Virus record (IMG/VR): IMGVR_UViG_3300032088_000083
Location: 1 to 24,048 of that record
DNA: 24,048 nucleotides
From: a virus
Strand: one strand, 5' to 3'
In this document: in pieces, positions 15,984 to 23,383 of the stretch
Numbering within the stretch: the stretch's first letter is position 1
Layout: each line of letters opens with the position of its first letter
Notes under the pieces: generated by a model
Told to the model about the DNA's origin: nothing
The model's input: the letters and a program-made list of their open reading frames with translations, nothing else
Databases searched by the model: none
Position numbers and translations under genes: made by a program

Positions 15984-17406
15984 CCGATTTACCTCTAACT
16001 TTATTTTTTAATGAAGCAAGTCCTTTTGCTCCTTCAGGACCTAATAAATAAGCTGCTGCAAGTTCATCTGGTTTTTTTGTAAACTCGGAAGCTTTTGCTA
16101 CATCAGCACCACCCATAACCATACCTGCTGTACCTACAAATGGTATGAAAGGAGCTGCTGCTCTAAATACAGGTCTAGCAATTGCTTTAGCAAACTTACC
16201 ATATTTACCTGCTTTCTCTTTTAAAAGTTCTTCATAGTTTTTTCTAGCTACTACATCCTCAGGTGTTTTTGCTTTTAAAGTTTGTAAAGTTTTATCAGTC
16301 ATTCCTCTATCAACAGATTTTAATGGATTAAATCCTCCCATTGGTAAATAAGGTTTTCCTGTTCTAACATCTAAGTTCCAACCTCTTAAAATATTTGCTG
16401 CTTTTTTACCTTGCTTACCTCCACTTGCAACTAAATTTTGTATGGCAGTATTATTTATATTAATTAATTTTGATAGCTCTTTGGTAGGATTTTTATCAAA
16501 AGCTCTTTTTAATTTTAGTTGTTCTTTATAAAAAGGTTTTAATTCATCATTTAATTTTTCAGCATAAACTTGATTTTGTTTTACAGTTTGTGGAGCTAAA
16601 GCATCTACTGGATATTCTGCTCCTAACGCTTTTGCTTGAAATATATTTGCAGTGTGAGCATTTTCAAATGTTTTACCTAAACCCATAGCTTGTTTAGTTT
16701 CCATAAATCTTCTTTCAGCTTGTTTAGTTTTTTTAGTAACATTTGTTCTTTTTTTAGCTGCATCAGCTTTGCTAGTGCTGTTTGGATTTATATTACCGTG
16801 TGGTATTTTAAATCCTGTTTTTTCTAATTCAGAGGCAACTTCAGTTACATATTTAGCAGCACCTGATTGAGGATTTCTAGTTCCACCATATTCTGCATTT
16901 ATTATTTGAGAAGCTTTTGCTTTAGAATAACCTTCTTCTAATAACTCTTTGGCTCTTAATTTTTTTTCATCAAAAATTATTCTTTTTTCTTTATTTATTT
17001 TTTCTATATTTTCTCTTACTCCAGGGTTATCTTTACCTTTAGGAAATGAATATCTTTCTCCTTTAAATCCAGGATTCCTATTTCCTTTTTTAAAATTAAC
17101 TCTCCCACCATCTGCATATCTATCTAGTTCAGCATCATACTGTTCTATTTTTTCAGTAACCATTTCACCGGTCTCACCAAACAATGGCATAACTGTATCG
17201 TAATAATCTGACGCAGATATTTCTTTATTGTCGAATGCTTTTCTTGAAATCTGTCCAACTAAATTAGTATAAGTTTTTGGTGATAAAGTATTAACAGCTG
17301 CTTTAGTATTTAAAGCTTCTAAACTTTTAAGATATTGTTTTGGTTTTGGTTTAGGAACAATTGGTTGTCCTTCTTCTAGGAAATAAGACGCTATGTCTTT
17401 GGCCAT
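15958..17406 (-). CDS. Probable virion-associated protein with HTH-like segment (482 aa)
   Basis: A 482-residue basic protein of unknown role. From the N-terminus: a helical region, ADGGRVNF (98-105), a Lys/Gly-rich stretch with NRNPGF and KDNPGV, a candidate helix-turn-helix at about 150-172 (RAKELLEEGYSKAKASQII), a long basic helical middle with a region around ENAHTANIFQAKALGAEYP that faintly recalls HNH-type nucleases without clear catalytic residues, and a C-terminal hydrophobic or amphipathic segment (AAPFIPFVGTAGMVMGGADV) that could enter a membrane. This mix suggests an ejected internal protein. Neighbours are terminase-side and portal genes. The call is an inference. Confidence 0.55.
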   Translation of the reverse strand: MAKDIASYFLEEGQPIVPKPKPKQYLKSLEALNTKAAVNTLSPKTYTNLVGQISRKAFDNKEISASDYYDTVMPLFGETGEMVTEKIEQYDAELDRYADGGRVNFKKGNRNPGFKGERYSFPKGKDNPGVRENIEKINKEKRIIFDEKKLRAKELLEEGYSKAKASQIINAEYGGTRNPQSGAAKYVTEVASELEKTGFKIPHGNINPNSTSKADAAKKRTNVTKKTKQAERRFMETKQAMGLGKTFENAHTANIFQAKALGAEYPVDALAPQTVKQNQVYAEKLNDELKPFYKEQLKLKRAFDKNPTKELSKLININNTAIQNLVASGGKQGKKAANILRGWNLDVRTGKPYLPMGGFNPLKSVDRGMTDKTLQTLKAKTPEDVVARKNYEELLKEKAGKYGKFAKAIARPVFRAAAPFIPFVGTAGMVMGGADVAKASEFTKKPDELAAAYLLGPEGAKGLASLKNKVRGKSDEFEEFVP

Positions 17407-18084: not shown

Positions 18085-19557
18085 CTAATAATACACTTTT
18101 GGTTTAGCTTGTAAAGGCTCATCTTCATAATCATCGGGATGCTGAATTAGACCACCTTGTCTAAATCTCATAACTGCTTGAGTCATAGAATCGACTAAGT
18201 CATCATGATCTCCATAAGGAAATGCAGCGCACTCTTCAATTACTTCTTGTGCAAAATCCATATCTGTTGGTGCATATATCTTACCACTTTCAAATAATGG
18301 AGAAACAGAATTAACTCTCGTATGTTTATCATTACCTTTACTTGGTGTAAAGTTAATTACTGGAATTCCCATTTTTCTTAATTCATAAGTAAGTGGGAGC
18401 CCTGAAGCTTTGCCCTCAATGATTACGGTTTCCGGGTTCCAGTAACCGTATTGCTCCATTGCAATACGTCTTAGTTCTGGAAACTCATATCTTCCCTTTA
18501 GACAATCTACTAAAATTAAACAAGGACCGCTATCTTCTGTTGGATGAAATACACCCCAAGTAGTAATAGCAGAATAGTCGGCAGTTTCTTTTTTCATAAA
18601 TGCTGTGTCATAGCTTTGTATAACATGTTCTAGTGGAGGAAGATCACCTTCCCAATCTTGCCACCATTCTCTTTTAATCAATGCACCTTCATCTCCAGTT
18701 GGATTTTGCATATATTGTGCATTCCATTTTGATAATGGAATAGATGCTTTAACTGCTTCTAGATCTTCTAGCTTCCAATATTCCGGCCACAGGGGTTTAT
18801 CAGAAGGTAGGATTGCAGGAAATTCTATAACTTCCCATTGATCGGCTTTATTTTCTTTTTGTGCTTTAATTAATCTTCCCGTTAAATCTTTTTCATTCCA
18901 TCTTGTCATTACAATAATAATTGTTCCACCGGGTTGGAGACGTTGACGTGGACCAGAAGTATACCATTCATAAGTTCTCTCTAAAGCTTGGGCATTCATT
19001 GCATCTTGCTCAGTGTGTGGATCATCAATAATTAGTAGGTCGGCACCACGACCAGTAATAGCAGAACCAACACCAGCAGCATAATATTCTCCACCTTGTT
19101 CAGTTTCCCATTTACCAGCGGCTTGTGAATCAGGATTTAATCTAGTTTCAAAAACTTCTTTATACTCAGGTGTATCCATTAAAGCTTTTGCTTTACGACC
19201 GAACCTTACAGATAATTCAGTTGTGTTAGTTGATTGAATAATTTTTAATTTAGGGTTTCTACCTACCATCCAAGCGGGTAATAAGTAAGATGCAAATTCA
19301 GATTTAGTATGTCTAGGTGCCATATTAATAATTACTCTTTTTGTTTTACCTTGAGCAATCTGATTAAATTTTTCTGCAACTTCTTTATGGTGTTTACCTT
19401 CTACAAAATCTGGCCATACATGTTTAACAAAAGCCATGAAGTCATTTTTAATATCTGCTTGTTTTTTCTTATCTTTCCATTTAGCCATATAAATAGCTAA
19501 TTGTCTTTTTACATCAGGTGGTAATTTCTCAAACTTTTTTAACTTCTCTATATCCAT
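18085..19557 (-). CDS. terL: Terminase large subunit
   Basis: A 490-residue DNA-packaging motor. The ATPase part has a Walker A variant APRHTKSE (80-87), Walker B LLIIDDPH (174-181) and the coupling segment MTRWNEKDLTGRL (217-229). The nuclease part has D317 in SYDTAF, E381 in IIEGKASG and the acidic cluster GDHDDLVD (449-456), the usual three metal-binding positions. The protein cuts and pumps DNA through the portal. The Met start follows AT-only palindromic sequence and has no visible ribosome site. No small subunit is recognised beside it; it may lie outside the window or be one of the small unknown genes upstream. Confidence 0.95.
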   Translation of the reverse strand: MDIEKLKKFEKLPPDVKRQLAIYMAKWKDKKKQADIKNDFMAFVKHVWPDFVEGKHHKEVAEKFNQIAQGKTKRVIINMAPRHTKSEFASYLLPAWMVGRNPKLKIIQSTNTTELSVRFGRKAKALMDTPEYKEVFETRLNPDSQAAGKWETEQGGEYYAAGVGSAITGRGADLLIIDDPHTEQDAMNAQALERTYEWYTSGPRQRLQPGGTIIIVMTRWNEKDLTGRLIKAQKENKADQWEVIEFPAILPSDKPLWPEYWKLEDLEAVKASIPLSKWNAQYMQNPTGDEGALIKREWWQDWEGDLPPLEHVIQSYDTAFMKKETADYSAITTWGVFHPTEDSGPCLILVDCLKGRYEFPELRRIAMEQYGYWNPETVIIEGKASGLPLTYELRKMGIPVINFTPSKGNDKHTRVNSVSPLFESGKIYAPTDMDFAQEVIEECAAFPYGDHDDLVDSMTQAVMRFRQGGLIQHPDDYEDEPLQAKPKVYY

Positions 19558-22063: not shown

Positions 22064-22109
22064 ATTATATCACAATGGCGATTTACTCGCCATTGTGCAA
22101 AGTGTCGCA
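22064..22109 (-). promoter_or_regulatory. Early promoter P1 with upstream dyad and second palindrome
   Basis: Minus strand: TGCGACA (22103-22109), three bases, second half TGCACAA, -35-like TGGCGA (22087-22092), 17-base spacer, extended -10 TGATATAAT with TATAAT at 22064-22069. A perfect 10-bp inverted repeat CACAATGGCG/CGCCATTGTG (22071-22080 and 22088-22097) fills the spacer and -35. It serves the 322-residue gene. Confidence 0.7.
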
Positions 22110-22110
22110 G

Positions 22111-22299
22111 TTATTTCAGTTCTTCAACTAAATCAACTTTAATATTTTCCATACCCATTTGTTCTGGCTCATCTTCTCTAGCCTCAAAATAATCATCATC
22201 ATGAGTTTCAAAAAGTTTTTGAGCCTCCTCCTTTGAGTCTGCCTCTACTATTACATACTCCCAAATATCAGCTGTGTAATTTACTTTAAATCTAGGCAT
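22111..22299 (-). CDS. Small acidic early protein (62 aa)
   Basis: A 62-residue acidic protein, the first leftward gene. The pattern FKVNYTADIWEYVIVEADSK followed by EEAQKLFE is that of a small beta-alpha unit like DpnD/PcfM-type proteins (Y-x-V...V-x-A-x-S-x-E-E-A). The family has no firm function. It has a strong ACAGGAGAAATAAAT leader, shared with the rightward 75-residue gene, and is under promoter P0, which carries the parS sequence. Confidence 0.65.
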   Translation of the reverse strand: MPRFKVNYTADIWEYVIVEADSKEEAQKLFETHDDDYFEAREDEPEQMGMENIKVDLVEELK

Positions 22300-22332: not shown

Positions 22333-22378
22333 ATTATAGCATGTTTCACGTGAAACATGAACATGACATACTGTCGCA
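22333..22378 (-). promoter_or_regulatory. Early promoter P0 with dyad and parS in the spacer
   Basis: Minus strand: TGCGACA (22372-22378), three bases, second half TGTCATG, -35-like TTCATG (22356-22361), 17-base spacer, extended -10 TGCTATAAT with perfect TATAAT at 22333-22338. A further near-perfect dyad (22380-22398) lies directly upstream. The 20-bp parS palindrome covers nearly the whole spacer, so any protein on parS would block RNA polymerase or contact it. Confidence 0.7.
22340..22359. promoter_or_regulatory. parS: parS-type centromere site
   Basis: CATGTTTCACGTGAAACATG is a perfect 20-bp palindrome. Its central 16 bases (22342-22357), TGTTTCACGTGAAACA, equal the bacterial chromosomal parS consensus bound by ParB/Spo0J, in the version common in alphaproteobacteria. 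No parA or parB gene is in the window. It could be bound by a host ParB, by a phage ParB coded elsewhere, or by an unrelated repressor that shares the motif. Confidence 0.8.
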
Positions 22379-22379
22379 C

Positions 22380-22398
22380 CTGCGACATATTGTCGCAG
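22380..22398. repeat. TGCGACA dyad, copy C
   Basis: CTGCGACA-TAT-TGTCGCAG with perfect 8-bp arms lies between the divergent promoters. With the adjoining TGTCGCA at 22372-22378 there are three head-to-head half-sites in a row, and a fourth, isolated TGTCGCA is at 22429-22435 on the rightward side. Confidence 0.75.
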
Positions 22399-22820: not shown

Positions 22821-23372
22821 ATAGGCTCCTGAGTCAATTAAAGAGCCTTTATAATAACTGACTCATGGGACTTGCACCAGAAAAAGCAAGTAGGATCACG
22901 GCTCGAAAGGTTTGACTCCGAGTAAAGCCCACTGATCCCTGATCCAATTGTCCAGGTATTCTAGACACGCTGAGATTGGATCTGGGATCAGTCATTAATG
23001 ACTGTGGAGATAAACACTATAACACGGGTATTTCGCCAGGATATCTGTATGTCATGCAATGGGAGGCGACATGACTACCCGCGTAGCATAGTGACTGATC
23101 AGTAAAATTTTATGGATCTACAATGCTCTACCATTGTAGGTCCTAAGATTATTATTTGCTGGACCCTGACAGGTGATAACCTGTTAGGCCTGTTGCCCGG
23201 GCTGTTAAAATAAAGCACGCCGGCCTCAACTCAGGGTCCTGCTAATGATGACCAAGTTAGGGGTACATATCTTGCCTATGGCATTTCCCTGGACCTAAGC
23301 AGTGACCTGAAAGGGTAGCGTCGATACTTGGACCAGCAGCGCTGGCTTCCCTGATCAGGATGGCGTTGCTGG
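22821..23372 (+). ncRNA. Large structured non-coding RNA, class unassigned
   Basis: About 550 bases with no gene, clearly higher GC than its surroundings and full of complementary segments. In order: an H-type pseudoknot (AGGCTC 22823-28 with GAGCCT 22843-48; TGAGTCA 22830-36 with TGACTCA 22859-65); a hairpin 22870-22891; a 15-bp helix with one T-T mismatch (22933-22948 with 22975-22990); a domain closed by CACTAT/ATAGTG (23015-20, 23088-93) that holds CGGGTA/TACCCG, TCGCC/GGCGA and GTCATG/CATGAC in pseudoknotted order with three adjoining strands; an 8-bp hairpin 23118-23139; a 9-bp helix GGACCCTGA/TCAGGGTCC (23161-69, 23231-39) around a GATA-loop hairpin; CCAAGT/ACTTGG (23252-57, 23326-31); and a final 10-bp helix 23333-42/23363-72 with one G-U. 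It has its own promoter. GOLLD- or ROOL-like giant phage RNAs are the nearest known comparison, but I cannot assign it. It is not RNase P RNA, tmRNA or rRNA by motif. Confidence 0.75.
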
Positions 23373-23383
23373 TATATGAATTA

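Follow-up and report, generated by a model that had tools for sequence, protein, structure and literature searches.

What might an exact chromosomal partition site be doing in the promoter of a marine phage, on a stretch of DNA in which no partition gene is recognised? The question is raised by 24,048 nt of virus DNA (hereafter the window; IMG/VR record IMGVR_UViG_3300032088_000083), a fragment of an HTVC027P-type pelagiphage, that is, a podovirus of SAR11. SAR11 hosts are the commonest bacteria of the ocean. A preliminary description of the window had pointed out a parS site in a leftward promoter, presumed to be early, and had proposed that the phage uses host ParB as a repressor or host-state sensor, anchors its DNA to the host segregation machinery, or persists as a partitioned episome with ParB coded elsewhere. 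The evidence collected below leads us to the view that the palindrome is probably a functional chromosome-type parS, kept to load host ParB on phage DNA.

The parS palindrome and the leftward promoter

The phage was placed by its large terminase subunit (Table 1), and the portal and capsid genes in the window are also of the HTVC027P type. The window contains, at positions 23252-23373, a strong Rfam match (114.6 bits) to the Flavobacterium-1 RNA, a name that is misleading, because the match stands in a pelagiphage.

The parS 16-mer TGTTTCACGTGAAACA, at positions 22342-22357, matches in 16/16 positions, with 0 mismatches, the consensus of chromosomal ParABS systems reportedly compiled by Livny et al. 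in 2007, and it is the sole copy in the window. The full consensus match, its extension to a perfect 20-bp palindrome and the chance expectation of about 1 in 100,000, all of them put forward in the preliminary description, were borne out, our own calculation from the base composition giving an expected count of about 1e-5 exact 16-mers per window. Matches with up to three mismatches appeared in 14 of 100 shuffles of the window, so that only the exactness of the site is informative.

The site is intergenic, as judged from the genes read, and lies inside the promoter that faces the 62-aa gene and then the gp35 homologue, toward terL. Specifically, the palindrome adjoins an extended -10 element, and no convincing -35 was found in the window for this minus-strand promoter, whose upstream half is taken up by parS. 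The location in the leftward promoter thus stands, and the earlier wording that the site sits exactly between the -35 and the -10 was too strong. Further upstream, a set of GTCGCA/TGCGAC inverted repeats represents a candidate phage regulatory element. A similar sequence, GTCGCAGGCGCCTGCGGC, occurs near position -250 of terL in many relatives.

Table 1. Positions of the features discussed (window numbering unless another record is named)
Feature	Position	Strand	Remarks
Large terminase subunit (TerL)	18085..19557	-	81.5% identity with HTVC027P; basis for placing the phage
gp35 homologue (HTVC027P gp35), 322 aa	21069..22037	-	second gene of the leftward operon
Perfect inverted repeat CACAATGGCGATTTACTCGCCATTGTG	22071..22097		in the space separating the 62-aa gene from the gp35 homologue
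62-aa gene	22111..22299	-	opens the leftward operon; PHROG 14649, function unknown
Extended -10 element TGCTATAAT	22333..22341	-	adjoins the palindrome, 2-bp overlap
20-bp perfect palindrome CATGTTTCACGTGAAACATG	22340..22359		includes the exact parS 16-mer, which is also found at the SAR11 chromosomal parS
GTCGCA/TGCGAC inverted repeats	22372..22398		upstream of the leftward promoter, common to relatives
Unannotated conserved reading frame	L202:8217-8588; HTVC027P record about 16216-16587	+	homologues across the family, 32-54% identity
parS of unrelated phage DSS3P8 (L577)	about 840 of its record
parS of unrelated phage vB_BcoS-136 (L624)
parS of unrelated phage Bromius (L579)

Search for partition genes

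The window and complete HTVC027P gave no match to profiles of the ParB_N, ParA (AAA_31) and HTH_ParB domains, nor did complete HTVC023P to those of ParB_N and AAA_31. The absence of parA and parB from the window, as first reported, is thereby confirmed. ParB_N was found in 0/48 parS-bearing contigs, several of these being 40-60 kb long, and HTH_ParB in 0/23 records, HTVC027P among them. Most contigs are fragments, and it is for those that are complete or long that the lack of ParB can be stated firmly. A ParB_N-like match of 25 bits in the contig of L158 lay below the cut-off, and that contig carries no parS.

Conservation of the palindrome in related phages

A clade of relatives was fetched without reference to parS, using a TerL about 64% identical to that of the window. 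The 400 bp ahead of the terL match held a parS with at most one mismatch in 22 of the 31 contigs having more than 300 bp upstream, almost always at 126-149 bp and mostly exact. In an alignment of 20 distinct sequences, the pairwise identity of the parS columns was 0.93, versus 0.65 and 0.64 in the flanks, and parS was the most conserved of 193 windows of 16 columns. One contig of the clade (L589) has lost the site, and some variants alter both arms symmetrically, as in TGTTCCACGTGGAACA (L599, L606), which is the kind of variation expected for the site of a dimer. In conclusion, the alignment shows purifying selection on parS in an independently retrieved relative clade.

Closer to the window, a pattern scan with a free centre returned 16 distinct related promoter contexts, all consisting of parS followed by TGNTATAAT. 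The arms are fixed by the scan pattern, which biases their conservation, and only the free positions were used as evidence; constraint was therefore tested only through the TerL-clade alignment and through independently retrieved promoters. The four free centre positions fit parS in 61/64 cases, a changed centre (CATGTG or CACATG) being present in 3 of the 16 contexts. The site occurs in two registers 6 bp apart, and the distance from the upstream TGTCA to the TATAAT (-10) is kept.

For a fair test, contigs were fetched by TerL, gp35 or gp33, and the promoters before the 62-aa gene or an alternative first gene were read. Exact parS was present in 7 of the 8 distinct promoters retrieved in this way, without reference to parS; the eighth (L177) is intact but lacks the site. 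The first gene of the operon varies (the 62-aa gene, a MPKKTY gene or gp35) and parS stays at the operon head. In contigs L123, L128, L540 and L557, parS stands at the place of the CACAATGGCGATTTACTCGCCATTGTG repeat, ahead of the gp35 promoter.

Therefore, the palindrome does not vary freely among the promoters of the window subclade; on the other hand, the parS promoter module was found in only 2 of the 80 nearest gp35 loci of HTVC027P-type relatives. In most other relatives of this type (L213-L291), a TTGAC-N9-GTCAA palindrome overlaps the -35 of the gp35 promoter, instead of parS. No parS was found in HTVC023P, and HTVC027P, whose GC skew (computed to look for an origin at this region) is monotonic, has no intact parS. 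A copy with one mismatch at position 16412 of the HTVC027P record was discarded as support: it falls within the codons of a conserved frame, HQ[FI]AFH[VI]KHP, in which the changes among relatives are mostly synonymous, and we regard it as a coding coincidence for that reason.

parS in other virus records

At least 120 IMG/VR contigs contain the parS 16-mer, whereas two control palindromes matched to it in G+C gave 0 and 1 hits. Of the 120 parS contigs listed, about 35 encode the TerL, portal or capsid of the podovirus family of the window. Among the other contigs of the matches listed, and with crude ORF calls, 32 of 103 sites were intergenic versus an intergenic share of 7.6% (P 3e-12), about four times the expectation. 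Where parS lies within large reading frames it reads VSRET, in unrelated and often proline-rich stretches, which suggests that selection acts on the parS DNA and not on the peptide.

Several unrelated phages also carry the site. The 5.9-kb inovirus bajarodino virus 6 (L623, PQ006135.1) has six exact GTTTCACGTGAAAC sites, at positions 636, 663, 1415, 2858, 4097 and 5629, of which five are intergenic in the annotation and the sixth falls just past a gene start; its annotation names no ParB, and the HTH_ParB search was negative. The stretches fetched from Roseobacter phage DSS3P8, Bacillus phage vB_BcoS-136 and Lactobacillus phage Bromius contain between one and four exact parS cores, and ParB_N is absent from DSS3P8 and Bromius. 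Three contigs with a distant TerL of about 28% identity (L017, L044 and L053) carry parS three to five times in a stretch of about 1 kb, which is upstream of terL in L017 and L044. Phages of the phiPsa374 type from Pseudomonas, which appeared parS-positive by BLAST, were not counted, the phiPsa374 stretch fetched having a near-match only.

These data bear on whether the site is a product of chance or of coding. Such an origin does explain the near-copy of HTVC027P, which amounts to the codons for FHVKH. For the window site it is hardly credible, given its intergenic position in a promoter, the 93% versus 65% conservation in the TerL-chosen clade, the intergenic excess among the matches listed (with the crude ORF calls mentioned) and the near-absence of the control palindromes.

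The SAR11 chromosomal site and host ParB

The sequence GTTTCACGTGAAAC or a one-base variant of it was found in 13 of 14 SAR11 genomes, usually once, and all 16 parS bases are present in 7 of the 14. In the loci read, the site lies at the start of rsmG, in an mnmG-rsmG-parA-parB operon. ParB is encoded by 12 of the 14 genomes and matches Caulobacter ParB (PDB 6t1f) with an E value of 2e-57. By mapping residues by hand on this alignment, with the parS-contacting residues of ParB as listed in PMC7383237, we found that SAR11 ParB keeps Q162, G170, K171, S172, R173, N178 and G201, with R204 replaced by K. It is thus of the parS type (R173/G201) and not of the Noc type (Q173/R201).

Host ParB is the likely ligand of the phage palindrome because the site is of the host type, stands in a promoter and belongs to a SAR11 phage in which no ParB was found; on these grounds we expect with considerable confidence that SAR11 ParB binds it.

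A different ligand would be a repressor coded by the phage, with the palindrome as its operator and a recognition sequence that equals parS by coincidence. The promoter position in 16 distinct contexts would suit such a repressor, and so would the TTGAC-N9-GTCAA palindrome found at the gp35 promoter elsewhere, as if operators were exchangeable there. However, the palindrome agrees with the host site at all 16 bp, unrelated phages (among them the six-site inovirus and Ruegeria and Bacillus phages) show an enrichment of this 16-mer too, no DNA-binding domain was recognised in the window proteins neighbouring the palindrome, and the HTH_ParB searches of the 23 records were negative, all of which renders a phage repressor improbable.

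Discussion

In the reading favoured here, host ParB, a CTP-dependent clamp, would be loaded onto phage DNA at parS. Since parS adjoins the extended -10, bound ParB should block RNA polymerase at the promoter of the TerL-directed operon; with every further copy of the phage genome, more of the few ParB molecules would be titrated away until the promoter is freed, so that it would work as a copy-number timer. If ParB does bind, control of the promoter in the window lineage has a little less than an even chance in our judgement. The fuller scheme, in which host ParB would act as a transcriptional regulator of the phage, silencing on entry and released once genomes outnumber ParB, the promoter reading copy number or the cell-cycle state of the host with no need of a phage repressor, is put forward as tentative.

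As a general role, an operator function is not supported, because relatives carry parS elsewhere, even inside reading frames; of the original idea of phage use of host ParB, the ligand remains likely, in view of the SAR11 parS beside parAB and the contact residues kept. The benefit common to the family could instead be ParB capture itself, whereby phage DNA would be anchored or spaced through the ParA or SMC of the host, or ParB would be withdrawn from the chromosome. In relatives parS persists outside promoters, in-frame sites in protein linkers included, and we consider it more likely for this reason that capture is what the family shares and that promoter control is a use specific to the lineage of the window. 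As the main family-wide role, positioning or partition is possible, and a decoy function is slightly less probable.

With regard to the site itself, a decoy function would mean that the multiplying phage genomes draw ParB away from the one parS of the chromosome, disturbing host segregation or SMC loading. The usually single parS of SAR11 and the position-independence of the site within the family are consistent with it, as is the incompatibility of the mobile element SGI1, reported to be dose-dependent through parS copies (PMC10954446). One site per genome would, however, be weak until late in replication, and a decoy is unlikely to be the explanation of the window palindrome. It is also improbable that the phage persists as an episome (a pseudolysogen) segregated by host ParA and ParB: a host-type parS in the absence of ParAB would fit, and SGI1 is stabilised likewise by plasmid ParABS (PMC10954446), but HTVC027P is described as lytic (PMC12753301) and the site is missing in most close relatives. 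Loading of host ParB at a functional parS remains the reading that we favour.

Mobile elements that mimic the parS of another replicon, such as SGI1, and phages with a ParABS of their own are known. The parS mimics of SGI1 capture the ParB of IncC plasmids (PMC10954446), and the pelagiphage resembles SGI1 in that a mobile element lacking its own ParAB mimics the site of a different replicon: the window, itself a fragment, carries another replicon's parS, and no ParAB was found in it. It differs from SGI1 in mimicking the site of the host chromosome and in being of lytic type. Compared to the chromosomal parS of ParABS (the SAR11 site in rsmG), the phage copy is an identical 16-mer and palindrome with host ParB as predicted ligand, but it is placed at a promoter, on a replicon in which parA and parB were not found. 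In Pseudomonas aeruginosa, ParB represses the promoters beside parS3 and parS4 (PMC5521831); there too parS adjoins a promoter, but the genes repressed are chromosomal, whereas the repression predicted for the phage would act on a virus operon. P1, N15 and the extrachromosomal mycobacteriophages (PMC7157519) have a partition-type site on a phage genome as well, but they bring a ParB of their own and in many cases a ParA; no phage-encoded ParABS was found in the sequences searched here (the window, complete HTVC027P and 48 parS contigs, many of them fragments). In the open-access literature we found no description of a host-chromosome parS on ParB-less phages of lytic type, built into a promoter.

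In conclusion, a parS kept without partition genes would tie one of the most abundant virus groups of the ocean to the segregation machinery of its host. It makes testable whether viruses capture or read ParB, a protein known for its part in chromosome segregation, and by what means the phages of single-parS hosts place or time themselves. In addition, the site may serve as a ready tag, by which fluorescent ParB could image infected cells with no phage engineering.
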